Positions 11,828-45,634 of a stretch of 64,000 nt of DNA are shown in pieces. The first letter of the stretch is position 1. Each line of letters opens with the position of its first letter. Source of the stretch: Spirochaeta thermophila DSM 6192 (GTDB taxonomy: Bacteria; Spirochaetota; Spirochaetia; Winmispirales; Winmispiraceae); contig NC_014484.1 in assembly GCF_000147075.1 (NCBI RefSeq), positions 1,567,501 through 1,631,500 on the forward strand. The letters are read 5' to 3'. The notes beneath the pieces are model-generated. The model saw only the letters and a list, made by a program, of their open reading frames with translations. It had not been told where the DNA came from and did no database searches. Position numbers and translations under genes: made by a program.

Positions 11828-11837
11828 CCTGTGCTCC

Positions 11838-12140
11838 TCACATCTCCTCGAGGTGCTCGCGTGCGAGCTCGTACACCTTCTGGACGTGCTCGTCCGCAAG
11901 CCGGTAGTACACGTGTCTCCCCTCGCGCCTCGACCGGACGAGCCTCGCGTGCTTGAGGAGCGCGAGCTGGTGTGAGACCGCCGAGTGCGTCATCTCCAGC
12001 CGTTCGGCAAGGGTATGCACGCAGAGCTCCTCGTCGAAGAGGAGGGAGAGGATCCGGATACGGGTGGGATCCCCCATCATGCGGAAGAACGAGGCCATCT
12101 CCTCGATGAGGACCTCCTGTGTTTCGGAAAACCCCGACAT
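11838..12140 (-). CDS. ArsR/SmtB-family metal-sensing repressor
   Basis: 100-aa winged-helix repressor. The start is ATG 12140, with AAGAAGG six bases upstream; an in-frame GTG at 12146 overlaps that site. The recognition helix reads MTHSAVSHQLALLKHA. The last helix carries D-x-H-(10 residues)-H-x-x-E in DEHVQKVYELAREHLEE, which matches the SmtB alpha-5 zinc ligands (Asp104, His106, His117, Glu120) in spacing. ELCVHTL holds a Cys and His in the alpha-3 position. It should sense Zn (or Cd) and release the operator just upstream. Confidence 0.88.
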   Translation of the reverse strand: MSGFSETQEVLIEEMASFFRMMGDPTRIRILSLLFDEELCVHTLAERLEMTHSAVSHQLALLKHARLVRSRREGRHVYYRLADEHVQKVYELAREHLEEM

Positions 12141-24095: not shown

Positions 24096-24158
24096 ACCGT
24101 ATCCTCCATACATTTGATCTCCCGTATCGATCACACCTGGAGGCCCACGCCCCCGCTT

Positions 24159-25100: not shown

Positions 25101-25193
25101 TCTAAGACCTCCTGGGGAAAAAAGCTAGTTTCACTATTCCACATACCATCCTCTCCCGCTACCCTTTTCTTGTACACAATGCGCGCCCCTTCT

Positions 25194-26876: not shown

Positions 26877-26895
26877 GGTATCTCTCCTTGAAAAA

Positions 26896-27858
26896 TTATC
26901 TTAATCGGTCCTCTTCGGAGGACACATACCGCTCGAGAAGACGAAACGCCTTCTTCCTGGACAGGGGGTTGTACACAGAGTGAGGCGGGGGGGCCAGTCG
27001 CTCCATGGTACTGGAACGCCACGCAGAGGGGGTCGATCCATAGAACTTCCTGAACGACGTCTCATACGCCTTCACACTGGGAAACCCATAGTCCATCGCG
27101 ATCTCCGTGATGGTGCGGGAACTCGTGATGAGATCCCGCAACGATTTCTGCAGACGTACCATCTGCAGGTAATCTTTGAAGGCAAGCCCTACCTTCTCGT
27201 GGAAAAACCTGGAAAGGTAGCTGGGATGCACCCCTTCCCGCTCGGCGAGTTCGGAAAGGGAGATACGATCCATGTAGTGGGTGTCCAAGTATTTGAGTAT
27301 GCGCGCCACTCTCGAGAAGTATCTCATGCTCTCCTCGATCTGCGACCTGTCCACCCGCATCTCCCTCTCCCCCACCCTGAACTCCGAGACGAGGAGCGAG
27401 AGGATGCGAAACACCCTTTCCATCATCCTGAGGCGTGCACCCTCCTCTGTCTTCCGGGACATGGCCATGAGGGAGGCGAGTTCCGTCCTCAACCTTCGAT
27501 ACTTCTCTTGGTCCTTCCCCTCTCTCGAGAGCGTGGAGTTACAGAGGAATCGCATCTGCGAGAACCCGGGTTCCCACTGATCGGCGTAGAGCACATCCAT
27601 CTGGAACACGAGGACGATATTCTGATCACCCATGGAATGGGTGAAGTGGAGCTCCTCGCCATGCACCAGTACCACGTCGTCGATCCCGCATACGTACTGG
27701 TTTCCCTCCACCTGCACCAGGATACTCCCGTCCAGCACGAAAAGCATCTCCAACTCCTTGTGGAGATGGAACCCGCACTCCCTCACGTTGTGGAGGAACA
27801 CCTTGAACGGAAGGTGCTCCTTGTACTCCACGTTCTCTATGTAGAAAAGACCTTCCAT
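26896..27858 (-). CDS. AraC-family transcriptional regulator
   Basis: 320 aa from ATG 27858 (MEGLFYIENVEY). An N-terminal cupin sugar-sensing domain holds histidines in FHLHKELEMLFVLDG. The C-terminal 100 residues have two helix-turn-helix units (ISLSELAEREGVHPSYLSRF and RTITEIAMDYGFPSVKAYE, followed by SFRKFYGSTPSAWR). It heads the GH3-esterase-GH3 operon and most likely activates it in response to an oligosaccharide. GGGAG precedes the ATG, but the TATAAT box lies only nine bases upstream of the start codon. Confidence 0.88.
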   Translation of the reverse strand: MEGLFYIENVEYKEHLPFKVFLHNVRECGFHLHKELEMLFVLDGSILVQVEGNQYVCGIDDVVLVHGEELHFTHSMGDQNIVLVFQMDVLYADQWEPGFSQMRFLCNSTLSREGKDQEKYRRLRTELASLMAMSRKTEEGARLRMMERVFRILSLLVSEFRVGEREMRVDRSQIEESMRYFSRVARILKYLDTHYMDRISLSELAEREGVHPSYLSRFFHEKVGLAFKDYLQMVRLQKSLRDLITSSRTITEIAMDYGFPSVKAYETSFRKFYGSTPSAWRSSTMERLAPPPHSVYNPLSRKKAFRLLERYVSSEEDRLR

Positions 27859-27867
27859 AGCGCTCCC

Positions 27868-27897
27868 ATTATATAACCATATGGGAGAACCCATATG
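27868..27897 (-). promoter_or_regulatory. AraC-gene promoter with perfect inverted repeat
   Basis: On the minus strand TATAAT occupies 27873-27868. CATATGGGAGAACCCATATG at 27878-27897 is a perfect inverted repeat with eight-base arms and a four-base centre, covering the -35 region. It is a candidate autoregulatory site. Bases 27898-28083 up to the MFS promoter show no gene. Confidence 0.6.
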
Positions 27898-28083
27898 AGT
27901 TCTACCACACAGAGCACCCCACAGCACATATCATAACTCACCGGGTACTCAGGGAAAGAAAGTATACAAGTCCTTCCCCGCCCCTGTCTCTCCTCTTTTT
28001 TACATGCTATCAAGGCGTTCCTTTACCGGAGCCGTGACCGGCGACGAGACGAAATGCGTCGGCCGTTCATCAACGCTCCATCA

Positions 28084-29360: not shown

Positions 29361-30158
29361 TTACTCGAGACTCCACTCGGCCATGAGCCTGGGAACATCA
29401 GCGAGAAGGCTCTTCGTGTACTCGTGTCGGGGGGCCTCTATCACCCGTTTCGCATCACCTTCCTCGCATATCTTTCCCCTGTGCATGATGGCGATCCGAT
29501 CGCTCACATAGTAGGCAAGCCCCAGGTCATGCGTGATGAACACGATCGTCGTACCCCGTTCCTTCCTGAGGGAAAGCAACATGTCGAGTATCGTCGAGCG
29601 GGAACAGGCGTCTATCATGGACGTGGGCTCATCGGCGATGAGTACCCTCGGTTTGATGATGAACACCCGGGCGATCATGAGACGCTGCATCTGCCCGCCC
29701 GAGAGCTCGAATGGATACTTGTTGTAGATCTCGTGATAGGGGAGGTTTACGAAGGAGCACGCCTCCTCCTTGATCCTGCGCGCCTCTTGTTCCGAGGCCT
29801 GAATACCCGCCACCTTGAGACAGTCCTGGAGGAACCTGTCGACCCTGAAGAACTGATTGAAGGACGCGAAAGGGTCCTGGAAGATGGCCTGGACCTCGCT
29901 CCAGTAGGCCCTCCTCTCCCGCTGGCCTCGCAACCGCAACACCTCTCCCCTGTAGCGCACCTCACCGGAGCTCGGCCTGAGGAGCCCCAGGAATATCTTG
30001 GCCAGGGTGGTCTTACCGCTCCCGCTCTCCCCCACTATGGAGACGATCTCCCCTTCACGGAACCCTATGTTCACGTGGTCCACGGCGGCGAACCTTCGCC
30101 GCCCTATACCGAAATAGCGGGTGAGATCCACCCCTTCGAGCACGTATTCATTCCCCAT
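29361..30158 (-). CDS. Oligopeptide/oligosaccharide ABC transporter ATPase (OppF/DppF type)
   Basis: About 265 aa from ATG 30158 (an in-frame ATG at 30164 is the alternative). Walker A is [10 protein letters not shown], signature [13 protein letters not shown], Walker [10 protein letters not shown], and the switch His is in [12 protein letters not shown]. The [12 protein letters not shown] variant is the form seen in dipeptide-type transporters that import beta-oligosaccharides in Thermotoga; transferring that substrate here is inference. The partner ATPase upstream is truncated, and no permease or binding protein is present, so this transporter cannot work from this locus alone. Confidence 0.85.
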
Positions 30159-30645
30159 GTGCATACCTCTCCTTGAGATCTTCTACATCGATGAGACATC
30201 TGTACATCCTCTTTCCTACGGGCCGCTCCGCCACCGCATGTTCCCTGCACGCGTCAAAGGCGTATGGGCACCTGTCGGCGAACCGGCATCCCCTTATCTC
30301 CTCCTTGAGGTTCGGCGGAGCACCCGGAATCGTTCGAATCGTGCGGGAGGAACTCATGAACTCCTCGTCCGGCACCAGGATGGAACCCATGAGGGCGTGG
30401 GAATAGGGATGAAGGGGATCGAATATCACCTCCCGGGCCGTCCCCTTCTCCACCAGCTGCCCGGCGTACATCACGGCGATGTCGTCCGCCACATGGTAGA
30501 GGAGTGGAAGCTCATGGGTGATGAAGATCATGGCCTTGATCACGCGCTCTCTCATGAGCAGCCTGAGCATCCGGATGACCGCCTTCTGGGAAGAGACGTC
30601 GAGTGCAGAGGAACACCACATGTTCCTGGAAACACAGCCATTCTC
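30148..30645 (-). pseudogene. Beheaded OppD-type ABC ATPase
   Basis: Only the C-terminal half is present. The frame begins around [20 protein letters not shown], the D-loop just after Walker B. It continues through [20 protein letters not shown] (switch His) and the OppD-type C-terminal [17 protein letters not shown] cysteine cluster. Walker A, Q-loop, signature and Walker B are missing. The boundary with unrelated sequence lies near 30615-30645. The stop overlaps the start of the OppF-type gene, as in an intact opp operon. This is the scar of a deletion or rearrangement. Confidence 0.8.
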
Positions 30646-30816: not shown

Positions 30817-31758
30817 ATGGAGAGAAGTGAAAAATTCTTACTCATCAACAGTTACGAAGATGCCCGCATCCTCAAGGCGCTTTCTTCGGAGATACGGATC
30901 AACATCCTCAACCTGCTGACCACCGAAACCCTGAATGTGAATCAGATCGCCGAGCGTCTCAAGCTCCCACAATCCACCGTGGCGACCAATATCGCCATCC
31001 TGGAAAAGGCGGGGCTCATCGAAACCGAGATAGTGAACGGCAAGAAGGGGAATCAGAAGCTCTGCCGCACCCGCTATGAGGAAATCATGGTCCAGTTCAT
31101 CACGGAAAAGAAGCCTGAAGAGGACAACACCATAGAAGTGGAAATGCCCATAGGCCTCTATACCAATTTCCACGTGACGCCACCGTGCGGCCTGTGCTCC
31201 TCGGAAAGCATCATCGGCTATCTCGATGTGCCGGACTCGTTCCTCCTTCCCGAGAGAGCGAAAGCCGCCCTCCTGTGGTTCGAGACCGGATGGGTGGAAT
31301 ATCAATTTCCGAACAACAGCCTCTACCGGAAAGAGCCGCTCCAGAGCCTCGAAGTGAGTATGGAACTCTCCTCCGAGATACCCGGCACGAACAAACAGTG
31401 GCCCTCAGACATCACGGTATGGATCAACAACGAAGAGATAGGAACCTGGGAATGTCCGGGGGACTTCGGCGACAAGCGGGGGAAATATACCCCCGAATGG
31501 TGGAAGCTGGAGGGATCCCAGTACGGCCTGCTCAAGAACTGGAGCATCACCGAATCGGGAGCCTATATCGACGGGGTGAAGGTCTCCGACATAACCCTCA
31601 GCGATCTCGATATTTCGAAACACCACTCCATCAGGGTGAAGGTGGGAGTCAAGGAAGAAGCCTCCCATCCCGGAGGGGTGAACATCTTCGGACGGGGCTT
31701 CGGTAACTACGACCAGGGAGTCGTCTTGAGGCTCTATTTCAAGAATTCCAGAGGATAG
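30817..31758 (+). CDS. ArsR-like winged-helix regulator with large C-terminal domain
   Basis: 313 aa. Residues 10-90 form a winged helix (ALSSEIRINILNLLTT, LNVNQIAERLKLPQSTVATN). The remaining 220 residues are a beta-rich domain without metal-sensor motifs, beginning after TPPCGLCSSE and containing VTWIN-like strands (DITVWINNEEIGTWECPG). Similar two-domain regulators sit next to glycosidase genes in Firmicutes. A sugar-sensing role for the C-terminal domain is inferred. The gene directly precedes the GH127 gene on the same strand, with a 48-bp gap holding only a weak hairpin. Confidence 0.75.
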   Translation: MERSEKFLLINSYEDARILKALSSEIRINILNLLTTETLNVNQIAERLKLPQSTVATNIAILEKAGLIETEIVNGKKGNQKLCRTRYEEIMVQFITEKKPEEDNTIEVEMPIGLYTNFHVTPPCGLCSSESIIGYLDVPDSFLLPERAKAALLWFETGWVEYQFPNNSLYRKEPLQSLEVSMELSSEIPGTNKQWPSDITVWINNEEIGTWECPGDFGDKRGKYTPEWWKLEGSQYGLLKNWSITESGAYIDGVKVSDITLSDLDISKHHSIRVKVGVKEEASHPGGVNIFGRGFGNYDQGVVLRLYFKNSRG

Positions 31759-31806: not shown

Positions 31807-33738
31807 ATGAGTACCATGCCGCACACCTTTTTCCTTCCCAGGTACGTGCACCTCACCTCAGGATGTATGGCACGACCCCACAGGACCGTGATAGAGAAGG
31901 TGATTCCCTACCAGGAGAAGGTACTCAGAGACGAGGTGCCCGATGCCCCGAGCCACGCGATAGAGAACTTCAGGATCGCCGCAGGAGAATCGTCGGGGGA
32001 ATTCCAGGGGATGGTCTTCCAGGACAGCGACGTGGCGAAGTGGCTGGAGGCGACCGCCTATTCTCTCATGGTCCGGCCGGATCCCGATCTTGAGAGGCGG
32101 GCCGACGAGGTGATCTCCCTCATAGGAAAGGCCCAACTGCCTGACGGGTACCTCAACACCTATTTCATCCTCACGGACATCGAAAAACGGTGGACCAACC
32201 TCGCGGAGTGCCACGAGCTCTACTGTGCAGGCCACATGCTCGAGGCGGCCATCGCCTACTTTCAGGCCACGGGAAAGAGGGAGCTCCTCGACATCATGCT
32301 CCGGTTCGTGGATCACATCGACTCCCGGTTCGGTCCAGAAGAAGGAAAACTGAAGGGATACCCAGGACATCAGGAGATAGAGCTCGCCCTCCTCAAGCTG
32401 TACGAACTCACAGGAGAAAAGCGGCATCTCGACCTCGCTTCGTTCTTCATCGAGGAGCGGGGTAGGCAACCGCATTACTTCGAGTGGGAATGGGAAAAGC
32501 GTGGGAGGACGTCCTTCTGGCCCAGATTCAGAGAGCTCGGTCATGAATACTCGCAATCCCATATCCCCGTGAGAGAACAAAGGGAGGCGGTCGGGCATGC
32601 GGTGAGAGCGATGTACATGTACACAGCCCTCGCGGATCTCGCACGCATCACAGGAGATACCCTGCTATGGGAAACAGCGCAGGCACTCTGGAAGGATGTC
32701 ACCCGCAGGAAGATGTACCTCACCGGAGGGATAGGCGCCTCGGCTTTCGGGGAATCCTTCAGCATCGCCTATGACCTCCCCAACGATCGCGCGTACAACG
32801 AGACGTGTGCATCCATCGGGCTCTTCTTCTGGGCCTCGAGGATGTTGCGGAAGGAAATCGATGCCGAGTATTCGGATGTGATGGAGCTCGCGCTCTACAA
32901 TGGAATCCTCTCCGGGATGTCACTCGACGGATCGAGATTCTTCTATGTGAACCCCCTCGAAGTGTGGCCAGAAGCATGCAGACACCGGGAGGATCTGAGA
33001 CACGTCATGACCACACGTCAGAAATGGTTCGGCTGTGCCTGCTGCCCACCGAACCTCGCACGTCTTCTCGCCTCCATCGGGGGGTATTACTACTCAAGAT
33101 CCGGCTCCTCGCTCTTCGTGCACTTCTACGGATCCAGCAATCTCACCATCGAGGACTGGGGAGTCACAGTGGAGCAGGAGACGGAGTATCCCTGGGACGG
33201 GGAGGTGAAGCTTTCCGTGATCGCTCGGGAGCCGAGGGAGTTCACGCTTTCCCTCCGCATACCCGGATGGTGCAATGACTTCTCGTTGGAGATGAACGGA
33301 GAAGCCTATACGTCGACACCCGAAAGAGGTTATGTAGCGATCCGGCGCACATGGAACGGCCGCGATACGGTGAGGCTCCGCCTCTCCATGCCGGTGATGA
33401 AGATCTACGCTTCTCCGGCCGTTCGTGAGAACGTGGGAAAGATCGCGTTGAAACGGGGGCCTGTGATCTATTGCCTCGAGGAAGTGGACAATGGGAAGGA
33501 TCTCCAGGCCCTTGCAATCAAGAGGGACTCCTCCCCTGTCGCCCGCTACGAATCCTCGCTCCTGGGTGGGCTCACCACCATCACGGCCGAGGGAGTCCGG
33601 CTCACGGCGGACGACTCAGCCGCCCCGTATCACACGACTCCTCCCACGCGGTCTCCCGCATACCTCGTCTTCATCCCCTACTATGCCTGGAACAACAGAG
33701 GAGAGGGTGAAATGCGTGTGTGGATACGAGAAGAATAG
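31807..33738 (+). CDS. GH127 beta-L-arabinofuranosidase
   Basis: 643 aa without signal peptide, the usual length for GH127. The Zn/thiolate catalytic centre seen in Bifidobacterium HypBA1 is present: the Glu and Cys of YNETCASIG and the double cysteine of FGCACCPPNLAR, where the first Cys is the nucleophile in the studied enzyme. The alpha/alpha barrel begins with WLEATAYSLM and NLAECHELYCAGHMLEAA. It removes beta-linked L-arabinofuranose in the cytoplasm. The start lacks a clear ribosome site; co-transcription with the upstream regulator is likely. Confidence 0.9.
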   Translation: MSTMPHTFFLPRYVHLTSGCMARPHRTVIEKVIPYQEKVLRDEVPDAPSHAIENFRIAAGESSGEFQGMVFQDSDVAKWLEATAYSLMVRPDPDLERRADEVISLIGKAQLPDGYLNTYFILTDIEKRWTNLAECHELYCAGHMLEAAIAYFQATGKRELLDIMLRFVDHIDSRFGPEEGKLKGYPGHQEIELALLKLYELTGEKRHLDLASFFIEERGRQPHYFEWEWEKRGRTSFWPRFRELGHEYSQSHIPVREQREAVGHAVRAMYMYTALADLARITGDTLLWETAQALWKDVTRRKMYLTGGIGASAFGESFSIAYDLPNDRAYNETCASIGLFFWASRMLRKEIDAEYSDVMELALYNGILSGMSLDGSRFFYVNPLEVWPEACRHREDLRHVMTTRQKWFGCACCPPNLARLLASIGGYYYSRSGSSLFVHFYGSSNLTIEDWGVTVEQETEYPWDGEVKLSVIAREPREFTLSLRIPGWCNDFSLEMNGEAYTSTPERGYVAIRRTWNGRDTVRLRLSMPVMKIYASPAVRENVGKIALKRGPVIYCLEEVDNGKDLQALAIKRDSSPVARYESSLLGGLTTITAEGVRLTADDSAAPYHTTPPTRSPAYLVFIPYYAWNNRGEGEMRVWIREE

Positions 33739-33824: not shown

Positions 33825-35360
33825 TCAGGGCAAGAGGTACTTCACCGCCCAGACGGACTCGTTTCCGTCGGAGAGCGCCGAGATGGAGAGGGTGTCGTTC
33901 CCCGCCTCGTCCCGGGTATGAATGAGGAGCCCTCCACAGCGTACGCCACCCAATTGTAGATGAACAAAACCCGTGTCCGGCTCGTATGACCAGCTTCCCA
34001 CATCCCTTCCCCTCCCGTCTCTCACGCGCCCCGAAGGAGTAAAGAGGTGCTCCTCCGCTCTCTTTATCACCGAGCTTATATCGGTTCCATGATTGATGAG
34101 CCAGTAGTACCCCGCCACCTCTTCTCTGCTCAGCCCCCTGGCGATCTCCTCTGAACCGTTATAGGCAAAAGGAGAGGCCACGAGCCACCCATCTCCGGTT
34201 CTGAACATGCGACGGACCCTCAGTTCGTGATACTCCGTACCATCATCGAAGCGTGTGTGATGTACGAGGAAGATCTTTCCATCTTCGTCGATCATGGCGG
34301 AGTTGTGTCCGGGAGCCATATAGGCTATCTCGAAGGAAGGGAAAGAGTAGTTCCCCATCAGCTTGACTCCGTATGGATAGTGGAAGCTCTTGCTCCTGTC
34401 CAGCGTGTCGCCCCGCTTGTCGGTATAGGGGCCGTCCGGGTACTTCGAGCGAAAGAGACGGATCTGGTACCCACCGTTGCTCTGAAGACTCCCATAGGAG
34501 ACGAAGAGGTAGTAGTATCCCGTTTCCTCGTCAAAGAGTACATACGACCCCTCCACGGAGTTGTGGTAGCCTCCCGCAAGGTGCCTCCCGAAATAAGGAT
34601 CGATTCCCTTTGCGGGATCTTCCCCGGGATGTATGGGATACCCCGTCCTCTTGTCCAGTTCCAGAATGAAGATACCGCCCGACCATGAGCCATAGACCAT
34701 CCAGAGGCGTCCTTCCGCGTCGTAGAAGAGCGAGGGATCTATCGCATTGGGCCAGAGGTGATTGTTGTACTTGTTGAGATGAAAGTATCGCGCCACACCT
34801 TTTTCATCCACGAAGTCTCGCACGTTGGTTTCCGCAATGGTATCCGGAGTGAATCCGGAATAGATGATGGTATCCTGATATGTATAAGGCCCTTCCACCT
34901 CGTCCGCTGTGGCGAAACAGATATTCGACTTGATGTAGGTGGAAGTGGTACAGAAATACATCATCCACTTACCCATGACAGGATTGTAGATCACATCCGG
35001 AGCCCATACGGAATACCCACCCTGACTGTTACGCCCCACATACGTGAAGGCACGCATTTCACTGTCGAAAAGATTCGAGAAAAGGCGATTGTATTTCGAC
35101 ACACCTTGTGTCAAAAGTTCCCACCGGATGAGATCGGAGGAAACCGCGGAGACCATGTGAGAGCCAAAGACATAGTACTTACCCTCCGCCTTGACGATAG
35201 AAGGATCATGGACCGACACCCCCACCCGTAACGCGGATCTTCGGAGGGAGGAAAGGTTCGGTCGATCGGGTACACTGCTACAGGATGCCGTCATACCCAA
35301 CACCCCAACGGTGATAACGACGAGGGAAACAAATCCAACACCTGTATGCCTCCATTTCAT
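33825..35360 (-). CDS. GH43 endo-arabinanase lipoprotein (AbnB-like)
   Basis: 511 aa with signal peptide and lipobox TASC, so it is probably surface- or periplasm-anchored. The five-bladed propeller has the general-base Asp in VGVSVHDPSIVK, a pKa-modulating Asp in NAIDPSLFYD, and the acid Glu in NSVEGSYVLFD. A His of the metal pocket is in MAPGHNSAMIDEDGK. A C-terminal beta domain (from about residue 390, YYWLINHGTDISSV) resembles the GH43_C domain of extracellular arabinanases. GGAGGAGG precedes the ATG. It faces away from the LamG-barrel genes across a shared regulatory gap. Confidence 0.88.
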   Translation of the reverse strand: MKWRHTGVGFVSLVVITVGVLGMTASCSSVPDRPNLSSLRRSALRVGVSVHDPSIVKAEGKYYVFGSHMVSAVSSDLIRWELLTQGVSKYNRLFSNLFDSEMRAFTYVGRNSQGGYSVWAPDVIYNPVMGKWMMYFCTTSTYIKSNICFATADEVEGPYTYQDTIIYSGFTPDTIAETNVRDFVDEKGVARYFHLNKYNNHLWPNAIDPSLFYDAEGRLWMVYGSWSGGIFILELDKRTGYPIHPGEDPAKGIDPYFGRHLAGGYHNSVEGSYVLFDEETGYYYLFVSYGSLQSNGGYQIRLFRSKYPDGPYTDKRGDTLDRSKSFHYPYGVKLMGNYSFPSFEIAYMAPGHNSAMIDEDGKIFLVHHTRFDDGTEYHELRVRRMFRTGDGWLVASPFAYNGSEEIARGLSREEVAGYYWLINHGTDISSVIKRAEEHLFTPSGRVRDGRGRDVGSWSYEPDTGFVHLQLGGVRCGGLLIHTRDEAGNDTLSISALSDGNESVWAVKYLLP

Positions 35361-35433
35361 CAGGACGCCTCCTCCAGATTGTTATGCCTTTTATATCATA
35401 AAATCAAAACAAAAACCCCATAACCATCATCCA

Positions 35434-35462
35434 TGTTAAAACACATGTCCATAATCTGTCAA
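35434..35462 (-). promoter_or_regulatory. Promoter of the minus-strand GH43 gene, with inverted repeat
   Basis: TTGACA (35462-35457), 17-bp spacer, TTAACA (35439-35434) on the minus strand. CATGT-N6-ACATG (35432-35447) spans the -10. The surrounding 35361-35673 gap is very AT-rich compared with the genome. Confidence 0.5.
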
Positions 35463-35599
35463 TCTCGAAACACCAGCACGTACGAATTTCGCACATCGAA
35501 GAATAGCAAACTATAAATAAAGACTTATTTTATTATTTTATAAAAAACTAAAATAATAATCCATACAAAACAAAATAATAGATCACACGACGGAAAAAT

Positions 35600-35628
35600 T
35601 TGACAAGTCCGAAATCTCGAGTTACAAT
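35600..35628 (+). promoter_or_regulatory. Promoter of the LamG-porin-LamG unit
   Basis: TTGACA at 35600-35605, exact 17-bp spacer, TACAAT at 35623-35628: nearly consensus, implying strong transcription. A leader of about 40 bases with GGAGG precedes ATG 35674. Confidence 0.75.
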
Positions 35629-35673
35629 CATAAATATCAATATAAATCAAATATTACGGTTAGGAGGTCGGAC

Positions 35674-36462
35674 ATGAAAGGAGTGATGAAAAGCGCGTTC
35701 ATTCCTGTCATCGCGACCATGATACTGGCCTGCGGTGAGCCAACCATCGGGAGGGAAGAGGTGGAAGCCTCTCAAGACAATCCAGTCACAACCACGCCTC
35801 TCAATCTCACCAATTCCACAGCACTGGTGGTACTACAATTCGAGAACACTCTCGAGGATGATTCTGGAAACAGTAACGATGCCACCATAGGTGGAACATC
35901 TCCTTCCTCATACTCCTTCATCACAGGCTATAGAAACACATCCCTCTATCTGGAGAACCCCGACAACACCCTGGGCTATGTGTATCTCACTCTCCCCGAC
36001 AACCTGGTAGGCAATACCTTCACCATTTCCTACTGGGCCAAGGTGATCACCTGGAATACGAGCTGGGGAGCCATCGCTCACATGATATTCAAAGATAGCG
36101 GGGGCACGTGGGAAGGCTTTGTGAGTCATGGCAGCAACTCTGATACGAGTTTCTACGCCCGAAACCGCAGCGATCTGGCTAACGACTGGGGTGACATTTT
36201 CACGACCCTCCCATCGGCCGGGGAATGGTTCCATGTCACGGAGACCATGGATTCTTCTGGTGTAGCAACACTCTACATCAACGGTGAAGAGCAAGGCACC
36301 TACGATACCGCATATGAGGATTTCACCGCCGCCACTGTATCCATCATGTTCGGACAGGATACCTGGCAGGCTCAGGGGGTGATCCTCGATGACGTAGTGA
36401 TCTACGACAGGGCCCTCAGCGCCTCGGAGGTGAGCGACCTCTGTGCAGGAATCCTTCCCTGA
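35674..36462 (+). CDS. LamG/concanavalin A-like lectin lipoprotein 1
   Basis: 262 aa. The signal peptide ends in the lipobox ILAC. After a Thr/Asn-rich linker, a LamG_3 jelly-roll runs from about residue 50 (VVLQFENTLEDDSGNSNDAT) to the end. It has the typical EWFHVTETMDSSGVATLYIN strand pair and the closing DDVVIYDRALSASEV motif. It has no catalytic residues; it probably binds arabinan or other glycans at the cell surface. It is followed by the barrel gene after 27 bp and by a paralogue after that. Confidence 0.82.
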   Translation: MKGVMKSAFIPVIATMILACGEPTIGREEVEASQDNPVTTTPLNLTNSTALVVLQFENTLEDDSGNSNDATIGGTSPSSYSFITGYRNTSLYLENPDNTLGYVYLTLPDNLVGNTFTISYWAKVITWNTSWGAIAHMIFKDSGGTWEGFVSHGSNSDTSFYARNRSDLANDWGDIFTTLPSAGEWFHVTETMDSSGVATLYINGEEQGTYDTAYEDFTAATVSIMFGQDTWQAQGVILDDVVIYDRALSASEVSDLCAGILP

Positions 36463-36489
36463 CAAAAAACAAACCAACAGGAGGACACC

Positions 36490-37779
36490 ATGATGAAGAG
36501 ATTACGTGTATGTGCACTGGGACTCATCGTGGCATGTGTAGGAGGCATCCTGGCAGCTCAGCAGGTGACGTTTCACGGGTATGCAGACTATTCCAACTAC
36601 CTCCTCACCACCTATGCCACACAGACCGGTAGTAAAGACTGGGAACAGTTCGAGTACGGAGCCGGGTTCGGTTCGTGGTACGGGGGCCGTACCGAAGTGA
36701 ACATGTTCATGGACTCTCAGAACATCCATTTCGTCCTCGGGATACGTCTCGGCAACGATCTCGACACCTGGTACGATCTCTATGGCGATGACGTTCCCTT
36801 CTATCAGGCCAACGTCCGGATAAATCTTCTCAACAATCAGCTCGACATCCTCACCGGTAAGTTCGAGGAACAGAACTTCGGCTACGTCACCAATGACCTC
36901 GCATGGGGATTCATCTACGCGCACAACGTGGCCGATCGGGACGTAGGCCCCTACTTCACCGGGCTGGAGATCAAGCCCTACATGCTCGACGGGTTTTCGC
37001 TTCTCGTTGGCATACCGATACGAGCCTGGAGCACCAACGACGGCTGGGGATCCATGCCGGCCAACAACTACTGGCAGAACCTGGTAGATCAGTTCAAGAT
37101 CAACATGAGGTACAGCCTCCCCATGGGTATCACGCTAAAAGCCGGGTATTACCACGGACTGTGGTACTCCGCTTCCGATTACAAGGGAGACGACGACGTG
37201 GTGAGAGAGGCCTATCTGAGCGCTGAGGGATTCAACTTCCTCGGATCGGGTTTCGATCTCGCCGCAGGCTACGACTTCCAGTACCGAACGGCTACAGAAG
37301 GAACGAAGCACAATATCAATGTCTCCGGAGCATACCGACCGGTTTCCTCTCTCCGCATTGCCCTCGGCAACAGATTCGCCTACGCGACCGAGTTCCACGA
37401 CAATGCAAAAGAGATCTTCCTCGACAGAGTCGTACTCGACGCGCTCTACGACCTGCCACTGCCTGGGGTCCAGGTAGGACTCAGAGGGAACTTCACCTAC
37501 ATGTCGGACTCTTCCGGTCAGGTGGGCAACGTGATGAGCGGCGACAGCGACGACCTCGGATTCTCCACCAACATCGATGCCGCATACGTGCCCGCCAATC
37601 CCGCGGATGGAACCTCCGGAATGGCCATGGGCGGTGGGGTCTTCCCGTTCTTAAAGAAGAATTTCTCCAACGGGTACGTACAACTGGGGTATCAGATGCA
37701 CATCAATTATTACGAATCCAAGACCTCGGTGAAGGCCATCTCCCACTACGTACCACTCAATATCGCCTTTTGGTTCTGA
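36490..37779 (+). CDS. Outer-membrane beta-barrel protein (porin-like)
   Basis: 429 aa. A cleavable signal peptide (…GGILAAQQ) is followed by alternating hydrophobic strands rich in Tyr, Gly and Asp, ending in aromatic AFWF, as expected for outer-membrane barrels. A GDSDDLGFSTNIDAAY loop could be extracellular. Its length fits 14-18 strands. Being sandwiched between two LamG lipoproteins and next to arabinanases, it is inferred to pass arabino-oligosaccharides. No TonB box or plug domain is seen, so it is not a SusC homologue. Confidence 0.8.
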   Translation: MMKRLRVCALGLIVACVGGILAAQQVTFHGYADYSNYLLTTYATQTGSKDWEQFEYGAGFGSWYGGRTEVNMFMDSQNIHFVLGIRLGNDLDTWYDLYGDDVPFYQANVRINLLNNQLDILTGKFEEQNFGYVTNDLAWGFIYAHNVADRDVGPYFTGLEIKPYMLDGFSLLVGIPIRAWSTNDGWGSMPANNYWQNLVDQFKINMRYSLPMGITLKAGYYHGLWYSASDYKGDDDVVREAYLSAEGFNFLGSGFDLAAGYDFQYRTATEGTKHNINVSGAYRPVSSLRIALGNRFAYATEFHDNAKEIFLDRVVLDALYDLPLPGVQVGLRGNFTYMSDSSGQVGNVMSGDSDDLGFSTNIDAAYVPANPADGTSGMAMGGGVFPFLKKNFSNGYVQLGYQMHINYYESKTSVKAISHYVPLNIAFWF

Positions 37780-37789
37780 ACAGACAAAG

Positions 37790-37819
37790 GTGTCCCCTGT
37801 TCTCCTGAACAGGGGACAC
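37790..37819 (+). other. Long intergenic hairpin without T tract
   Basis: Perfect 13-bp stem GTGTCCCCTGTTC/GAACAGGGGACAC with a TCCT loop, just after the barrel gene. The absence of a T run suggests an mRNA-stabilising or attenuating element that keeps the barrel and LamG 1 message more abundant than the downstream LamG 2 message. Confidence 0.65.
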
Positions 37820-37859
37820 ACCATAAGAAATGGAACATTGGAATATCTGGGGAGGAAAC

Positions 37860-38597
37860 ATGAACAGTACGAGCGTCATCAAACCGATGGGGACGCTGCT
37901 CGTCCTCATCCTCGCGCTTGTGGGATGCGCCTCGATGGAAGAGAAAGGAGCACCCCTTACGGTGGACTTCGACCTCCATGCGAGGGCTGTCTACACCATG
38001 GAGCATATAGAGGGAAACACCCTGAAAGACGATTCAGGGAACGGACTGGATGCGATCATCAGGGGTAACCCGGCGACCACCGAAGGGAAGTTCGGGAAAG
38101 CACTCGTATTCGATGGGACCCAGACGTATATCGAACTCAAACCCGAGGTCCTGGAGGGTAAAGAGTGGTCATTCCTCGCCTGGGTGAATGCCGAGGCATG
38201 GCCCCCATGGGCCAGGATATTCGATTTCGGTGACGGCGCCACCGCCGACATGTGGTTCGGATTCAGCGGCGTGGAAGGTGTGATGAGGTGTGACATCTTT
38301 CATCCATCTGGTAGCGTGAAACTGCTCGGACCTGCCTTTCCCACGGGCGAATGGGTACATCTGGCCATCACAGTGAACGGGAGAGAGATGGTCATGTACG
38401 TCGACGGTAAGCGCATGGCATCCGGTTACACGGGACTCCTTCCTTCTCATGTAGAAAAGAAGAGACTCTACATAGGGGCGAGCAACTGGCCCGATCCGCT
38501 CTTCGTGGGAAAGATGGATGAGATCCTCATCGCCGACGCGGCATACACGGACCAACAGATCAAGGCCATCATGCAGTCGGGTATCCCTGTACGATAA
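37860..38597 (+). CDS. LamG/concanavalin A-like lectin lipoprotein 2
   Basis: 245 aa from ATG 37860, which has GGGGAGG upstream. The lipobox is LVGC. The LamG_3 domain spans about residue 40 to the end (TLKDDSGNGLDAIIRGN, GKFGKALVFDG, GEWVHLAITVNGREMVMYVD, GKMDEILIADAAYTDQQ). It is paralogous in layout to LamG 1 on the other side of the barrel gene. Role as for LamG 1: glycan capture near the outer-membrane channel, by inference. Confidence 0.85.
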   Translation: MNSTSVIKPMGTLLVLILALVGCASMEEKGAPLTVDFDLHARAVYTMEHIEGNTLKDDSGNGLDAIIRGNPATTEGKFGKALVFDGTQTYIELKPEVLEGKEWSFLAWVNAEAWPPWARIFDFGDGATADMWFGFSGVEGVMRCDIFHPSGSVKLLGPAFPTGEWVHLAITVNGREMVMYVDGKRMASGYTGLLPSHVEKKRLYIGASNWPDPLFVGKMDEILIADAAYTDQQIKAIMQSGIPVR

Positions 38598-38611
38598 GTT
38601 CCCTCCTCACA

Positions 38612-38640
38612 CCCTGCCCCACCCCGGGGCAGGGGTTTTT
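38612..38640 (+). terminator. Intrinsic terminator after LamG 2
   Basis: Nine-bp stem CCCTGCCCC/GGGGCAGGG followed by GTTTTT. It separates the LamG-barrel unit from the two GH43 genes. Confidence 0.85.
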
Positions 38641-38669
38641 CCTCAACGAACTGCAATGGGGCGTACTTT

Positions 38670-40316
38670 ATGGGAAAGCACACCTTTTTTCTGACGTCAT
38701 GGTCTCTCATCCTTCTCCTCTCATGCCGAGTGGGAAGTGAATACGCACCCACGGACACCCCTGTGGATGTCGGAGAAGATCCTGCAATCACAGAAAAGTA
38801 CACACGTTCGATCGACATCTACGATCCCACGACGTGGGGACCTTTGAACGTCCACGATCCCGAACTATTCCAGGACGATGACGGCACCTTCTATGTGTTC
38901 TCCACCGATGCAAGCATTGGAAACACCTGGCAAGGAGGCGTCCAGGTCCGTCGATCGAAGGACCTCGTACACTGGGAATGTCTGCCTGAGCCGGCCCTCG
39001 GCATGTGGGACGAGGAGATGAAGGAGTGGCTCGGATTTCCCTCTGATGCAGAGGCCTATACCTGGGCTCCCTCGGTGGTGAAACTCAACGGCCGGTACTA
39101 CATGTATCACGGCGTCATCGTGGAGGTCCCCGACAATGACAACCGCCCCCGCGCCTGGATCGGTCTTGCCATAGCCGACACGCCTACCGGCCCGTATCTC
39201 CCGGCCGACGAGTATGATCCCTCTACCTATTCCTGTTCCACAGTAGTCCGCTACACCTTCACGAGGACCCCCGGAACGATCGACGAGGATTGCCTCAACG
39301 AGAGCGGAGGAGACTGGTCGAAAGGGTTCGGAGCCATTGACCCCGAGGTGGTCTTCGATGTGGAAGGGAACATGTGGCTCACCTATGGCTCATGGAAAGG
39401 GGGGATCGCTATACTCCAACTCGATCCCACTACCGGCATGCCGATCAACGGTTATCCTGCGGATACCATAGAAAACGGATACGGGACCCTGATCGCGGGT
39501 GGGAATGGAATAGCAATCGAAGGAGCGTGCATCTTTCCATATGGAGACTACTACTATCTCTTCTACTCCCTGGGAGACCTCCTCTATGACTACAGTATAC
39601 GGGTGGGCCGTCGTCCGATCTCCGAAGGCATCGCAGGACCATATTACGATTCCGAAGGAAGAGACCTCACTACACTCACGTGGGAGGAATCCCATAGGTA
39701 CGGCAACAAGATCCTTGGTGCTCATCAGTTTGAAGGTCACTACGGGTGGAGGAATCCAGGGGGACAATCGCTCCTCATCACCCAGGATGGCAAGATTCTC
39801 ATGGCCCACCATACGAGGACCACATTCAGAGAGAGCTGGTACTTCTATCTCCAGGTGAGGCAAATCTACTTCACTGAAGACGGATGGCCGGTGGCCAATC
39901 CCAACGAATACGCCGGGGAAACCTTGAGAGAGGTGAGCCCTACGGAATTCGCGGGGACCTACAAAGTCATCCACACGAAAAGAGGAACCAGTTGGGGATT
40001 CGTTTCAACCTATGAAGGTACCCAGAGCTCCGACGAAGTGAATCTGGAAGATGCGATCGAGACGGTATCCGAGAATGTGACCTTTCATTCGGAGGGGACG
40101 ATTTCAGGAGCCTACCAAGGCACCTGGTCGATCTCGAACCACTACCACATCACCATCCAGCTCGAGGACAACCAAGGGACTCCCATTGGGACCTACAAGG
40201 GTATCGTGAGCGATGCCCTGGACTGGTCACGAACAGGTGATGTGGAGAGGCACACTCTCACCTTCACTACATTCTGCCCGGAAACGGGAGAATATTTCTT
40301 CGGCAACAAGGAGTAA
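38670..40316 (+). CDS. GH43 endo-arabinanase-like lipoprotein
   Basis: 548 aa, signal peptide with LLLSC lipobox. The propeller base Asp is in LNVHDPELFQDD. Another Asp is in GAIDPEVVFD, and the acid Glu in AIEGACIFPYG. HHTRTTFRESW supplies the usual His. A C-terminal beta domain (from about residue 415, TYKVIHTKRGTSWGF) resembles that of extracellular arabinanases. Compared with the minus-strand paralogue it has a longer insertion around residues 150-215. It is immediately followed by a second GH43 gene 4 bp later. Confidence 0.87.
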   Translation: MGKHTFFLTSWSLILLLSCRVGSEYAPTDTPVDVGEDPAITEKYTRSIDIYDPTTWGPLNVHDPELFQDDDGTFYVFSTDASIGNTWQGGVQVRRSKDLVHWECLPEPALGMWDEEMKEWLGFPSDAEAYTWAPSVVKLNGRYYMYHGVIVEVPDNDNRPRAWIGLAIADTPTGPYLPADEYDPSTYSCSTVVRYTFTRTPGTIDEDCLNESGGDWSKGFGAIDPEVVFDVEGNMWLTYGSWKGGIAILQLDPTTGMPINGYPADTIENGYGTLIAGGNGIAIEGACIFPYGDYYYLFYSLGDLLYDYSIRVGRRPISEGIAGPYYDSEGRDLTTLTWEESHRYGNKILGAHQFEGHYGWRNPGGQSLLITQDGKILMAHHTRTTFRESWYFYLQVRQIYFTEDGWPVANPNEYAGETLREVSPTEFAGTYKVIHTKRGTSWGFVSTYEGTQSSDEVNLEDAIETVSENVTFHSEGTISGAYQGTWSISNHYHITIQLEDNQGTPIGTYKGIVSDALDWSRTGDVERHTLTFTTFCPETGEYFFGNKE

Positions 40317-40320
40317 GCCT

Positions 40321-41325
40321 ATGAGAAACGCTCAGCATCACCTGCCTGCTGTCCTGGTGATCCTCTCGATTCTTCTTTTCTCCTATTCCACAGGGTGTCG
40401 CCTCCTCCCGGAAGGCGAGGTGGACCCTACCCCCTGGGACAACCCCATCATACGAGACATCTATTCAGCGGATCCTGCAGCACTTGTCCATGGAGATACG
40501 CTTTATCTTTATGTAGGACATGATGAGGCCCCAGAAGATGCAACCACGTATGCGATGAACGACTGGTACTGTTACTCCACGAAAGACATGATCCACTGGA
40601 CCAACCACGGGCCGGTGCTCTCCGTTAGGGATTTCTCGTGGGCAGATGGTAACGTCTGGGCGGGACAGGTGGTATATCGGAACGGCACGTTCTACTACTA
40701 TGTGAGTGTGTCCCAGAGTTCCACAGGGGGTATGGCGATAGGGGTAGCGGTTTCGGACAGTCCGACCGGTCCCTTCAAGGACGCCCTGGGAAGGGCACTC
40801 ATTACCTCCAACATGACGAAGTTTTCCGGGCAACCGAGATGGAGCTGGGACGATATCGACCCCACTGTGCTCATCGATGACGACGGTCAGGCGTATCTGT
40901 ACTTCGGCAACACCTACCCCAAGTATGTAAAACTCAATGAAGACATGATCAGCTTCGACGAAGAGACCGGTATCCAGCCTCTCCTCCTTCCCTTCGTAGC
41001 GGGACTTCCCTTTACAGAAGCCCTGTGGATTCACAAATACAAAGGAACGTACTACCTCTCGTGGGCTGCCGGATGGGAGGAACAGCTGGTGTACGCCACG
41101 AGTGACTATCCGACCGGCCCATGGAAACCCGGAGGAAAACTGATGACCCATGCGGAAAATTGCAATACGAGTCATCATGCGATCGTCGAGTTCAAGGGGA
41201 AGGGATACATCTTCTATCACAACGGTACGCTTCCAGGCGGAGGATCCTATCGGAGATCAGTGTGCGCCGAATATCTCACCTACGACGAGGAGGGGAACAT
41301 ACCTCTTATCTCCCCCTCACCTTGA
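40321..41325 (+). CDS. GH43-family glycosidase lipoprotein
   Basis: 334 aa from ATG 40321, with AAGGAG in the last codons of the preceding gene. The signal peptide ends at a lipobox STGC. It is a single GH43 propeller: base Asp in IYSADPAALVHGD, modulator Asp in DDIDPTVLIDDDG, acid Glu in LPFTEALWIHKYKG, and His in CNTSHHAIVEFKGKGYIF. There is no extra domain. The specificity (alpha-L-arabinofuranosidase, xylosidase or galactanase) is not readable; context favours arabinan side-chain removal. Confidence 0.85.
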   Translation: MRNAQHHLPAVLVILSILLFSYSTGCRLLPEGEVDPTPWDNPIIRDIYSADPAALVHGDTLYLYVGHDEAPEDATTYAMNDWYCYSTKDMIHWTNHGPVLSVRDFSWADGNVWAGQVVYRNGTFYYYVSVSQSSTGGMAIGVAVSDSPTGPFKDALGRALITSNMTKFSGQPRWSWDDIDPTVLIDDDGQAYLYFGNTYPKYVKLNEDMISFDEETGIQPLLLPFVAGLPFTEALWIHKYKGTYYLSWAAGWEEQLVYATSDYPTGPWKPGGKLMTHAENCNTSHHAIVEFKGKGYIFYHNGTLPGGGSYRRSVCAEYLTYDEEGNIPLISPSP

Positions 41326-41444: not shown

Positions 41445-42644
41445 CTACTTTTCCCCCAGGTGGGATACCACATAGTCGGCCATGTCATCGATGAGGTCCA
41501 TCTCTCGTGCCATCTGCAATATGGTGTACCTATGAGGCCGCAACTCACTCGCATGACGGATACTGTCATGGAGGAGGTTTCCATCGATGCCCAATCGGCC
41601 CGGCCTTATCTTCAATCCCGAGGAGACGAGCAAGGTATGCACCTCCGAAGGGGAAGGCGGAACAAGGCCCAGATCCGAGACCAGATCTGGAAGGCGCGCG
41701 TTCATGAAGGCATAGCAGTGGGCGATACACAGCGTGGCGACGCCTACGGCGGATCCATGGAAAAAGGGAGGCTCCACCCCCGCATCGAGGAGTCTGTACT
41801 CCCAGTAGTGCACGAGGTGATGTTCCGAGCCGGAGGCGGGACGGGAACTGCCCACGTATTCCATCGCAAGGCCGGAAAGGACAAGCCCCTCCATGAGGGC
41901 AGTAACGTCCACGGCTGTCGTCCCATCTCCGGATCGAAGGGAGTCGAGCGCCGCATCCACCGCCTGCTCCATGAGGGATGCTACTTCTGGACAGTAGTAT
42001 TCCCCCCTCCTCCCGTGGGAGAGCCGCCAGTCCGTGAGGGCGGTCTTCTTTCCTATCATGTCTCCCACTCCGGCCCGGATCAATTCCGACGGTGCATCCT
42101 GGAGCACCCTCCGTGACGCAAAGACACCGAGCGGCACATGAGCGGGAAAGGTCTGCTTCTTTCCATCCACAAGGAGAGGGCTCACGGAAGATGCATAGCC
42201 GTCCATCGAGGGAGCAGTCGCCACCACCACATATGGGATGCCCAGCACGAACGAGACGAATCGGCATATATCGTTGAGAGTCCCGGAGCCCACGGCCACG
42301 ATCATGCCCACCCCGGAATGTGCGGAAATCGTGAGCGATCCCACGGCGTGTTCATCAGGATGAAGTCTCTTCCGACCCGGAAAGACAAACGATCGAACGG
42401 ATCGCCCCACGCGCCCCCTGAGCACCCGGTATAGCTCCTTCCCCTGTACCTCCCATGTGTACTCATCCGCCACGCACAACACATCCCCTTCCAGCTGGAA
42501 ACCCTTCAAAAAGGAAAGGAGTCCCTCCTCACAGGAGGCTTCACAGATACGCACGCTTTGCACCTTGCTCTCATGCACCCTTCCACAGGCACAGACCCCC
42601 TCTCCCATCGACCCAGTCCTGGCCACCGGCCCCCCCGTTCCCAC
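41445..42644 (-). CDS. araM: AraM-type glycerol-1-phosphate dehydrogenase
   Basis: 399 aa from GTG 42644, which has a G-rich ribosome site; an ATG at 42608 is the alternative. The iron-containing alcohol-dehydrogenase fold has the nucleotide motif VGSGTLNDICRF, TAPSMDGYASSVSPL, and metal ligands around GSEHHLVHYWEYR and HGSAVGVATL. In Bacillus subtilis AraM lies in the arabinose operon and reduces DHAP to sn-glycerol-1-phosphate. Here too it adjoins arabinofuranosidase genes. Its start abuts the stop of the GH51 gene, so it is the third gene of the unit. Confidence 0.85.
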   Translation of the reverse strand: MGTGGPVARTGSMGEGVCACGRVHESKVQSVRICEASCEEGLLSFLKGFQLEGDVLCVADEYTWEVQGKELYRVLRGRVGRSVRSFVFPGRKRLHPDEHAVGSLTISAHSGVGMIVAVGSGTLNDICRFVSFVLGIPYVVVATAPSMDGYASSVSPLLVDGKKQTFPAHVPLGVFASRRVLQDAPSELIRAGVGDMIGKKTALTDWRLSHGRRGEYYCPEVASLMEQAVDAALDSLRSGDGTTAVDVTALMEGLVLSGLAMEYVGSSRPASGSEHHLVHYWEYRLLDAGVEPPFFHGSAVGVATLCIAHCYAFMNARLPDLVSDLGLVPPSPSEVHTLLVSSGLKIRPGRLGIDGNLLHDSIRHASELRPHRYTILQMAREMDLIDDMADYVVSHLGEK

Positions 42645-42645
42645 G

Positions 42646-44136
42646 TCACCCCCCCTTTTCCTCGGATGAGAAGCTCAAGGCCACGACGGATCTGGGAGGA
42701 AGGGCCGTCCGCACCACCCCTTCCTTCGAGACAACTCCTCCATCGAAGGGCCGGGGCATGACCCTGTCCGGATCTTCGAATGTATTGTGAGCATCGATCG
42801 TCTCCGCACTGAGGATACGTCCTCCCTGATAGGTGACGGCGGTGCCCATGAACTCGCAGGTGAGTTCCACCTGTTTCTCGTGATGGAGATTGCACAGGGT
42901 GAGGTGGATCCTCCCGCTTTTTCTCGATGCGGACGCGCTCACGAGAGGAATCGTCTCCTTTCCCATACGGTACTCGTCTCCCTCGTAACGGAGGGGAAGA
43001 TGCTCCCCCTCCTGGTGGGGGGCATAGAGATCGAAGACATGGTACGTGGGGGTCAGGACAGTACGCTCACCTTCGGTGAGGAAGAGGGCCTGGAGCACGT
43101 TGACGAGCTGGGCGAGATTCGCCATCCTCACCCTGTAGGCGTGACGGTTGAAGATGTTGAGGTGGATCCCCGCCACCAGGGCATCCCTGATGGTGTTCTG
43201 CTGATAGAGGAACGCGGGATGGGTCCCCTCTTCCACCCGGTACCAGGTGCCCCACTCGTCCACGATGAGCCCCACCCTTCGTTCCGGATCGTACCGGTCC
43301 ATGATCGTGCCGTGCCGCACAACGAGCGTCTCCATGAAGAGCGCCTTCTTGAGGGTCTCGAACCACTCCTCCTCGCCAAAACCCGTCGCAGCCCCTTTTT
43401 CCTCCCAGGTGCCCGGCACGGTGTAGTAGTGGAGGCTGAGCCCGTCCATGAGGTGGGCCGCCTCTCTCATGAGTACCTCGGTCCACCGGTAGTCGTCCAC
43501 GTTCGCACCCGAGGCGATCTTGTAGATGGGCTCCTCTCCGTAATCACGGACATAGGTGCGGTACCGCCTGTAGAGATCGGCGTAGAACTCGGGACGCATG
43601 GTGCCCCCACACCCCCACGTCTCGTTCCCGATACCGAGAAACTTGAGCCGCCAGGGGGCCTCCCGGCCGTTCTTCCTCCTCCACTCCGCCATCTCGGAGT
43701 CACCGGAAAAGGTCATGTACTCTATCCATTCCGCCATCTCCTGCACGGTCCCGCTCCCCACGTTGGCAGCCACGTAGGGCTCACACCCCAAAAGCTCACA
43801 GAAGTCGAGGAACTCATGCGTACCGAAGTGGTTCGTCTCGATCACCCTTCCCCAGTGGGTGTTGACCCTTTTGGGCCGGCTCTCCCTCGGTCCCACCCCA
43901 TCCTTCCAGTGATACTCATCGGCAAAGCATCCCCCGGGCCAGCGAAGCACGGGAATCCTTATCCTTCGCAGGGCCTCCACCACATCCTTTCGGTACCCTC
44001 TGATGTTGGGTATGGGGGAATCCTCCCCCACCCATATCCCTTCGTAGATACACCGCCCGAGATGTTCTGCGAAGTGACCGTAGATCTCTCGTGGAATCTT
44101 CCACGAGGGCTCCGGATACACTATGACTCTATTCAT
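42646..44136 (-). CDS. abfA: GH51 alpha-L-arabinofuranosidase 1
   Basis: 496 aa from ATG 44136, with GGAGG upstream. The clan GH-A barrel has the acid/base Glu in [13 protein letters not shown] and the nucleophile Glu in [15 protein letters not shown]. The N-terminal [19 protein letters not shown] and the [19 protein letters not shown] loop are diagnostic. A C-terminal jelly-roll follows. There is no signal peptide, so it removes arabinose from imported arabino-oligosaccharides. The start overlaps the preceding GH51 stop by eight bases. The GGCGG-T insertion after GNETW distinguishes it from its neighbour. Confidence 0.92.
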
Positions 44137-45634
44137 CACGCTTCCTCCTGAACCTGAGCACGTTCCACGACAGTCTGGGGAGAGCAACCGAAAAGACATC
44201 CGTTTTCATCGGTTCCACACGTTTCTCCCGACGGGGGTGCACCTTGTCCGGCTCCTCGAAGGTGTTGATCGCGTGGAGATCGGGGCCATCCAAGACGATA
44301 TGCTCCACAAAGGAAACCCCATCGAAAGAACGGAAATCCAGCTCCACCTCCACGGGAACCTCCTGGGAGGTATTGAGCACGAACACCGTGATGTCACCCG
44401 AGGCCTCATCGTAGGTGGCGGCAGGATAGACTAAGGGCACCTCCTCATAGGTCCTCGTTCCATAGGTGGGCGCCTTCACGATGGGTTTGAGGGCCTCACC
44501 TCTTCCATACGCGGCAGCGAGCTGGAAAGGATGGTAGATGGTCTGTTTGATGGCCCTCCCCCCCCGTTCAGTATAGATGGGTGCGATCACGTTCACAAGC
44601 TGAGCCAGACACGCCATCTTGACCCGATCCGCATTGTTTATCAATGTAGCGATCAGCCCCCCGACCACCAGCGCATCGAGCAACGAATATCTGTCCTCGA
44701 GGATGGGAGGTGCCGTCTCCCAGGGCATGAGTTTCAGCTTCTTCTGATACCACACATTCCATTCGTCGAACGAGAGCATGAGCGACTTGGCGCTCCTCTT
44801 CTTGGCCTTCACGAAATCCGCCGTGGCAACCACCGCACGGATGAACCGATCCATATCGATGAAAGACGCCAGGAAATCGCCCACATCTCCCTCGTTCTCG
44901 TAGTAGCGATGGAGGGAGATGTAATCCACATGGTCGTAGAGGTATTCGAGAATCATCCTGTCCCATTCCGGGAAGGTGGGCATGAAGGAGGTGGAGCTCC
45001 CGCTCGCCACCAACTTGATCTCCGGATCGACCCACTTCATGATCTTCGCCGTCTCAAGGGCCTTCTTGCCGTAATCGTCTGCCTCGAGATGGCAGATCTG
45101 CCAAGGACCATCCATCTCGTTTCCCAGGCACCATACCTTGATCGAATGAGGATCCTTGTGTCCGTACTCGATCCTGAGATCGCTCCAGTACGTACCAGAC
45201 GGGTGATTGCAGTACTCGATGAAGTACCCCGCCTCCTGAGGGGTACCGGTCCCGAGGTTGACAGCAGCCATCACATCCACACCCGCCTTGCGGGCCCAGT
45301 CCACGAACTCGTCTATGCCCACCTCGTTCGTCTCGATGGAATGCCAGGCGAGCTCGAGCCTCCGTGGGCGACGTTCTTTCGGCCCTATTCCGTCGGTCCA
45401 GTTGTAGCCGGAGACGAAATTCCCCCCGGGATACCTCACGATGGTGACTCCCAGATCCTTCACCAGCTGAAGGACATCCTTCCTGAATCCCTGCTCATCG
45501 GCATCCGGGTGCCCCGGTTCATAGATCCCGGAATAGACCGCTCGACCGAGGTGTTCGATGAACGAACCGTAGAGATACCGATCCACCTCTCCGATCACGA
45601 AATCACGATCGAGAATGATCTTCGCCTGTTGCAT
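44129..45634 (-). CDS. abfA: GH51 alpha-L-arabinofuranosidase 2
   Basis: 501 aa, with GGAGG upstream of the ATG. The acid/base Glu is in [14 protein letters not shown] and the nucleophile Glu in [35 protein letters not shown] and [19 protein letters not shown] are family landmarks. It is the classic AbfA type found in Thermotoga and Geobacillus, while its downstream neighbour is a more divergent paralogue. It is the first gene of the abf-abf-araM unit, reading away from a 450-bp gap. Confidence 0.93.

Follow-up and report, generated by a model that had tools for sequence, protein, structure and literature searches.

A conserved lipoprotein-barrel unit in spirochaete arabinan loci resembles a minimal Sus-type system that lacks TonB and SusD

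The window analysed here, a stretch of 64,000 nucleotides (positions 1567501-1631500) from the single-contig, 2,472,645-base genome of Spirochaeta thermophila DSM 6192, contains three consecutive plus-strand genes, LamG1, barrel and LamG2, which are followed on the same strand by the glycoside hydrolase genes GH43a and GH43b (Table 1). Together these three genes form a conserved, arabinan-linked outer-membrane unit resembling a pared-down Sus-type system, with neither TonB nor SusD. The locus as a whole is probably devoted to arabinan utilisation, with LamG1-barrel-LamG2 serving as a passive, Sus-like module for capture and entry at the outer membrane and the barrel representing a new porin family. 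An initial sequence-only reading had described a 429-residue, signal-bearing barrel between two LamG lipoproteins, and gene order, reading frames, Laminin_G_3 matches, signal peptide and modelled fold all agree with that description. In our literature searches we found neither this locus nor a spirochaete equivalent of SusCD described.

Both LamG proteins match Laminin_G_3 in Pfam (3.9e-20 and 9.2e-25; 73 and 88 bits against a cut-off of 27.6). The whole 2.47-Mb genome encodes only four LamG domains, two of which flank the barrel. The top sequence match of both proteins in the PDB is Domain 4 of the Geobacillus arabinanase AbnA (2.7e-10 and 1.5e-9), which shares their ConA-like β-sandwich. In the crystal structure of this domain (5HON) an aromatic cleft holds arabinopentaose, and by calorimetry Domains 1 and 4 of AbnA bind arabinan independently of each other (PMC9110388). 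Some tryptophan positions align between the LamG proteins and Domain 4, as in NWPDP with NWWDP, and the LamG1 model superposes on 5hon with a template modelling (TM) score of 0.73 by target length at 26% identity; the confidence of this model is low (predicted local distance difference test, pLDDT, 58), and fold matches serve as support only. As a control, the LamG domain of a xylanase from the same genome matches AbnA Domain 4 about a thousandfold more weakly (1.5e-6) and ranks an S-layer protein above it. At the level of sequence, the similarity to Domain 4 exceeds the family background but is not exclusive, and LamG1 and LamG2 are best described as putative arabinan binders. Their setting also differs, Domain 4 being one domain of a secreted Gram-positive enzyme and the LamG proteins free-standing lipoproteins beside a porin. 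Additional matches of LamG1 to clostridial neurotoxins reflect the jelly-roll fold shared with the receptor-binding domains of these toxins, which the rest of LamG1 does not resemble.

The barrel protein has a signal peptide and ends in NIAFWF, the aromatic terminus already remarked upon in the sequence-only reading. In an AlphaFold2 model built with 12 sequences (pLDDT 72, predicted TM score 0.72), a signal helix is followed immediately by ∼18 strands, the exact number of which is not settled, with neither a plug nor a periplasmic domain. Foldseek comparison of this model returned porins and other outer-membrane channels throughout, the highest TM-scores including those of sucrose porin and maltoporin (0.54) and also chitoporin. 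The barrel, which is present as a single copy in the host genome, has no match in Pfam or NCBIfam, both checked with 12 family members, or among PDB sequences. The model indicates that it is most likely a plugless, sugar-porin-like channel of a family new to the libraries searched, through whose pore arabino-oligosaccharides could pass. Its likeness to the sugar-specific porins (maltoporin LamB, sucrose porin ScrY and chitoporin) lies in the predicted fold and in the occurrence of a single barrel, plugless in the model, in a sugar operon, but it lacks sequence similarity to any solved porin or Pfam family. We know of no sugar-specific porin with dedicated surface glycan-binding lipoproteins encoded in its operon.

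The neighbouring enzymes point to arabinan. GH43a, GH43b and the divergent GH43c all match Glyco_hydro_43 in Pfam, and the best matches of GH43a and GH43c are endo-1,5-arabinanases; among known structures, GH43a is nearest to endo-arabinanases and GH43b to arabinofuranosidase/xylosidases. Judged by eye, lipobox-type cysteines are good in the two LamG proteins (ILAC and LVGC) and in GH43a (LLSC), and weak in GH43b (STGC) and GH43c (TASC). The earlier proposal of three flanking GH43 lipoproteins holds for the enzyme family, but GH43c is divergent and lies outside the unit, and GH43b and GH43c are probable lipoproteins. The GH51 and GH127 enzymes of the locus lack signal peptides.

Single-sequence and profile searches identified the barrel family in nine Spirochaetota genomes. 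The single barrel sequence found no relative among 84,980 species genomes; a profile scan of the same set returned six barrel loci, all from Treponema and two of them new, giving 11 loci in total, and a search of plasmids gave no match. The loci span S. thermophila, a member of another family (genome G300) and many Treponema, with named sources including Treponema sp. JC4, T. zioleckii kT3 and several Treponema assemblies, among them assemblies from goat abomasum and roe deer reticulum. A lipoprotein gene lies directly 5′ of nearly every barrel, so the search for a conserved gene order in spirochaete genomes, proposed in the sequence-only reading, gave a positive result; in locus L024, from G300, no lipoprotein gene precedes the barrel. 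Homologues of LamG2 lie 3′ of the barrel in 7 of the 11 loci, and homologues of the ArsR-type regulator are likewise present in seven. The same reading had named, as grounds for its own rejection, an absence of co-occurrence in relatives. Instead, when all GH43 genes were mapped in the nine genomes, eight had one within 10 kb of the barrel against 0.28 expected (P ∼3e-12 if the genomes are independent; 2.5e-6 when each of four genera contributes a single genome), and in the ninth the barrel adjoins a GH51 gene and the same ArsR-type regulator.

Five Treponema loci contain a tandem duplication of the barrel, each copy usually being preceded by a lipoprotein gene. In the barrel tree the first copies cluster together, as do the second copies, both with 100/100 support on an unrooted split, so the paired lipoprotein-barrel arrangement is old. 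Between the two S. thermophila genomes compared, the ratio of non-synonymous to synonymous substitution rates is 0.10 for the barrel, 0.11 for LamG1 and 0.38 for LamG2; the barrel and LamG1 are under purifying selection, LamG2 less strictly. In addition, modules homologous to barrel-preceding lipoproteins are found within arabinanase-like GH43 enzymes of other Treponema. The lipoprotein L009:2788-3495 matches the C terminus (residues 634-765) of the enzyme L025:5022-7418 at 6e-26, and L030:10338-10904 matches an insert (189-323) in L026:6848-9121 at ∼1e-9. By sequence, such fusions would be the pattern expected of carbohydrate-binding modules for the same substrate.

The barrel and LamG2 are ∼70-73% identical between S. 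thermophila and G300 (L024), and Treponema copies are ∼30% identical to those of S. thermophila, whose family-mate G033 lacks the unit; horizontal transfer is possible. A weak barrel match in G033 (1.8e-4 over 97 positions, L029), which has an unrelated neighbourhood, was set aside. Separately, a lipoprotein with a similar N-terminal sequence recurs in Treponema arabinan loci (L009:7065-8012, L028:17262-18200 and L035:15601-16380).

The gene layout had been likened to a Bacteroidetes SusCD locus with no homologue of SusC or SusD, and the absence of both stands. The SusD family (PF07980) has no match in any of the nine barrel-bearing genomes and, among controls, was matched only in Bacteroides; the TonB plug domain (PF07715) is found in neither S. 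thermophila genome. Because the host encodes no plug domain, the comparison needs correcting in one respect: uptake through the barrel would be passive and porin-like, with energy spent only at the inner membrane. With SusD also missing from the nine genomes, the unit is not SusCD, though its layout works like one. As in Bacteroidetes Sus-type loci, a barrel stands beside lipoproteins with glycan-binding-type domains, and lipoprotein endo-enzymes, exo-enzymes and a regulator share one locus. In contrast to those systems, the spirochaete barrel is predicted to be small and plugless, the lipoprotein gene precedes it, and the binder is ConA-like rather than of the SusD fold.

These features can be combined into a model in which GH43 lipoproteins would cut arabinan at or near the cell surface, and LamG lipoproteins of the AbnA Domain-4 type would hold the polymer and its fragments close to the barrel. 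Arabino-oligosaccharides would then enter the periplasm passively through the plugless barrel and be moved across the inner membrane by an ATP-binding cassette (ABC) importer, and the GH51 and GH127 enzymes would complete hydrolysis inside the cell. We infer that the lipoproteins face outward and contact the barrel. Of the arabinan uptake proposed in the sequence-only reading, arabinan as the substrate and the barrel with its lipoproteins as one conserved unit are retained here, and contact between barrel and LamG proteins is a conjecture. A more far-reaching version, which we put forward tentatively and do not expect on balance, is that a Sus-like importer arose independently in spirochaetes: a plugless porin of the new family would form a complex with ConA-like surface arabinan binders, so that capture is coupled to entry without TonB energy and the lipoprotein partner can be swapped (LamG, Big_3-containing or other types). 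If so, one type of barrel could handle more than one glycan.

Several observations weigh against the arabinan-uptake model. The LamG fold is promiscuous: the same-genome xylanase domain used as a control also matches AbnA Domain 4, and with a combined LamG profile AbnA Domain 4 does no better than an S-layer protein, the two ranking level. In relatives, the lipoproteins encoded before the barrel often share no sequence similarity, so that what is conserved is partly position, and both domain fusions concern Treponema lipoproteins rather than LamG1 or LamG2. In one Treponema locus, L032, barrels occur with a lipoprotein-like gene and LamG2, but the part of the locus covered holds no arabinan enzymes. 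Confidence in the barrel model is moderate and leaves the number of strands unsettled, and most of the ABC importer next to the locus is gone from the window genome.

Alternatively, the LamG proteins and the barrel may be co-expressed but function independently and without contact, the former tethering cells to plant walls or concentrating substrate for the GH43 enzymes and the latter acting as an ordinary diffusion porin. This departs from the model above in the coupling step only, and we regard it as a serious possibility, if not the expected outcome. It accords with the fusion of relatives' binding-type modules to GH43 enzymes and not to barrels, with the resemblance of the barrel model to a complete porin needing no partner, with the sequence variation among partner lipoproteins and with the missing upstream lipoprotein gene in L024. 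However, the lipoprotein-then-barrel order has survived an old duplication of the barrel, and in most loci both copies are still preceded by a lipoprotein gene, which exceeds what co-regulation needs. The substrate could also be another arabinose-bearing side chain of pectin or xylan, such as arabinogalactan, side chains of rhamnogalacturonan I or II, or arabinoxylan. The structural affinity of GH43b for arabinofuranosidase/xylosidases would fit such a substrate, as would the score, below cut-off, of the GH127 enzyme against an aceric acid hydrolase model, but the endo-1,5-arabinanase matches of GH43a and GH43c, the two GH51-type arabinofuranosidases and the resemblance of the LamG proteins to an arabinan-binding domain make this unlikely. 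Finally, a barrel adjoining lipoproteins that differ in sequence between loci is reminiscent of an exporter and its cargo, and the barrel might deliver the neighbouring lipoproteins to the surface, as Slam or type XI systems do, rather than conduct sugars. We consider this very improbable: 12 barrel members gave no Pfam or NCBIfam match to such exporters, the modelled strands begin directly after the signal peptide and leave no room for a periplasmic N-terminal domain, the best structural matches are porins, and the genomic context is arabinan-specific.

Passage of large plant-glycan fragments across the spirochaete outer membrane is little described. If the arabinan-uptake model is correct, the unit provides a concrete candidate for this step in both gut Treponema and a thermophilic degrader of fibre, adds a porin family that the libraries searched do not contain, and shows that arabinan binders of the AbnA Domain-4 type also exist as free-standing lipoproteins. 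It would also be an example of convergence, in which a binder and a barrel were assembled into an importer independent of TonB.

Table 1. Features of the arabinan locus, in window coordinates
Feature	Position	Strand	Description
ABC importer remnant, oligopeptide/oligosaccharide-type	29361-30621	-	OppF-like ATPase and 3′ end of OppD-like gene
ArsR-type helix-turn-helix regulator	30817-31758	+	Conserved C-terminal region; present in most related loci
GH127 β-L-arabinofuranosidase-family enzyme	31807-33738	+	No signal peptide
GH43c	33825-35360	-	AbnB-like arabinanase; probable lipoprotein; divergent from LamG1-barrel-LamG2
Promoter-like site for GH43c	35433-35462	-	TTGACA-18-TAACAT, 10/12 consensus; divergent
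Putative sigma-70-type promoter of LamG1-barrel-LamG2	35600-35628	+	TTGACA-17-TACAAT, 11/12 consensus; function inferred from placement
LamG1	35674-36462	+	262-residue lipoprotein, ConA-like (LamG) domain; nearest solved sequence is arabinan-binding AbnA Domain 4
Barrel	36490-37779	+	429-residue porin-like outer-membrane β-barrel; family without Pfam, NCBIfam or PDB sequence match
Hairpin, 13 bp, barrel-LamG2 intergenic	37790-37819	+	Also in strain G007
LamG2	37860-38597	+	245-residue lipoprotein, LamG domain; homologues are the commonest gene 3′ of the barrel
Terminator-like hairpin and T-run	38612-38634	+	Ends the three-gene unit, separating it from GH43a
GH43a	38670-40316	+	Arabinanase-like lipoprotein, GH43 and GH43_C
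GH43b	40321-41325	+	Arabinofuranosidase/xylosidase-like GH43; probable lipoprotein
AraM/glycerol-1-phosphate-dehydrogenase-like protein	41445-42644	-	AraM-like dehydrogenase
GH51-type arabinofuranosidase	42646-44199	-	No signal peptide
Second GH51-type arabinofuranosidase	44129-45634	-	Homologous to GH51-type proteins of related loci

The near-consensus promoter proposed upstream of LamG1 exists as a sequence. The promoter scan found three such sites against 4.4 expected in shuffles, so that nothing but placement speaks for a function. A search for a palindromic operator common to the upstream regions gave AT-rich dyads only and nothing convincing; the candidate TATCAA-N6-TTGATA occurs in 4 of 14 upstream regions against a shuffled maximum of three and was rejected. 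The C-terminal region of the ArsR-type regulator (∼200 residues) is well conserved and belongs to no Pfam family; the protein is a candidate regulator of arabinan loci common to spirochaetes. Strong hairpins, mostly of differing sequence, lie between barrel and LamG2 in four genomes (the window genome, G007 at L010, G300 at L024 and G582 at L030); they may set the ratio of barrel to LamG2 or protect the mRNA.

Comparison with the second S. thermophila genome, G007 (2,560,222 bases), shows that LamG1-barrel-LamG2 is intact in both strains while its surroundings have changed. Relative to G007 (L010:13270-17513), the window genome has lost 4.24 kb at 30610-30611, and with it the binding protein and both permeases of an ABC importer divergent from the ArsR-type regulator, together with the 5′ part of the OppD gene. 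The nearest importer binding protein elsewhere in the window genome is only 32% identical. Conversely, G007 lacks GH127 and GH43c at the locus, and GH43c is absent from G007 altogether. Insertion sequences lie on both sides of the three-gene unit in G007 (L010:6454-7698 and 10832-12113): a Mutator-family transposase separates LamG2 from GH43a, and an IS1595-type transposase and a fragment of a sugar-type ABC permease occupy the place of GH127 and GH43c. Near the arabinan locus, the window also contains two GH3-like glycosidase genes, an esterase-like lipoprotein gene and an AraC-type regulator gene (21825-27927), named from their translations only.

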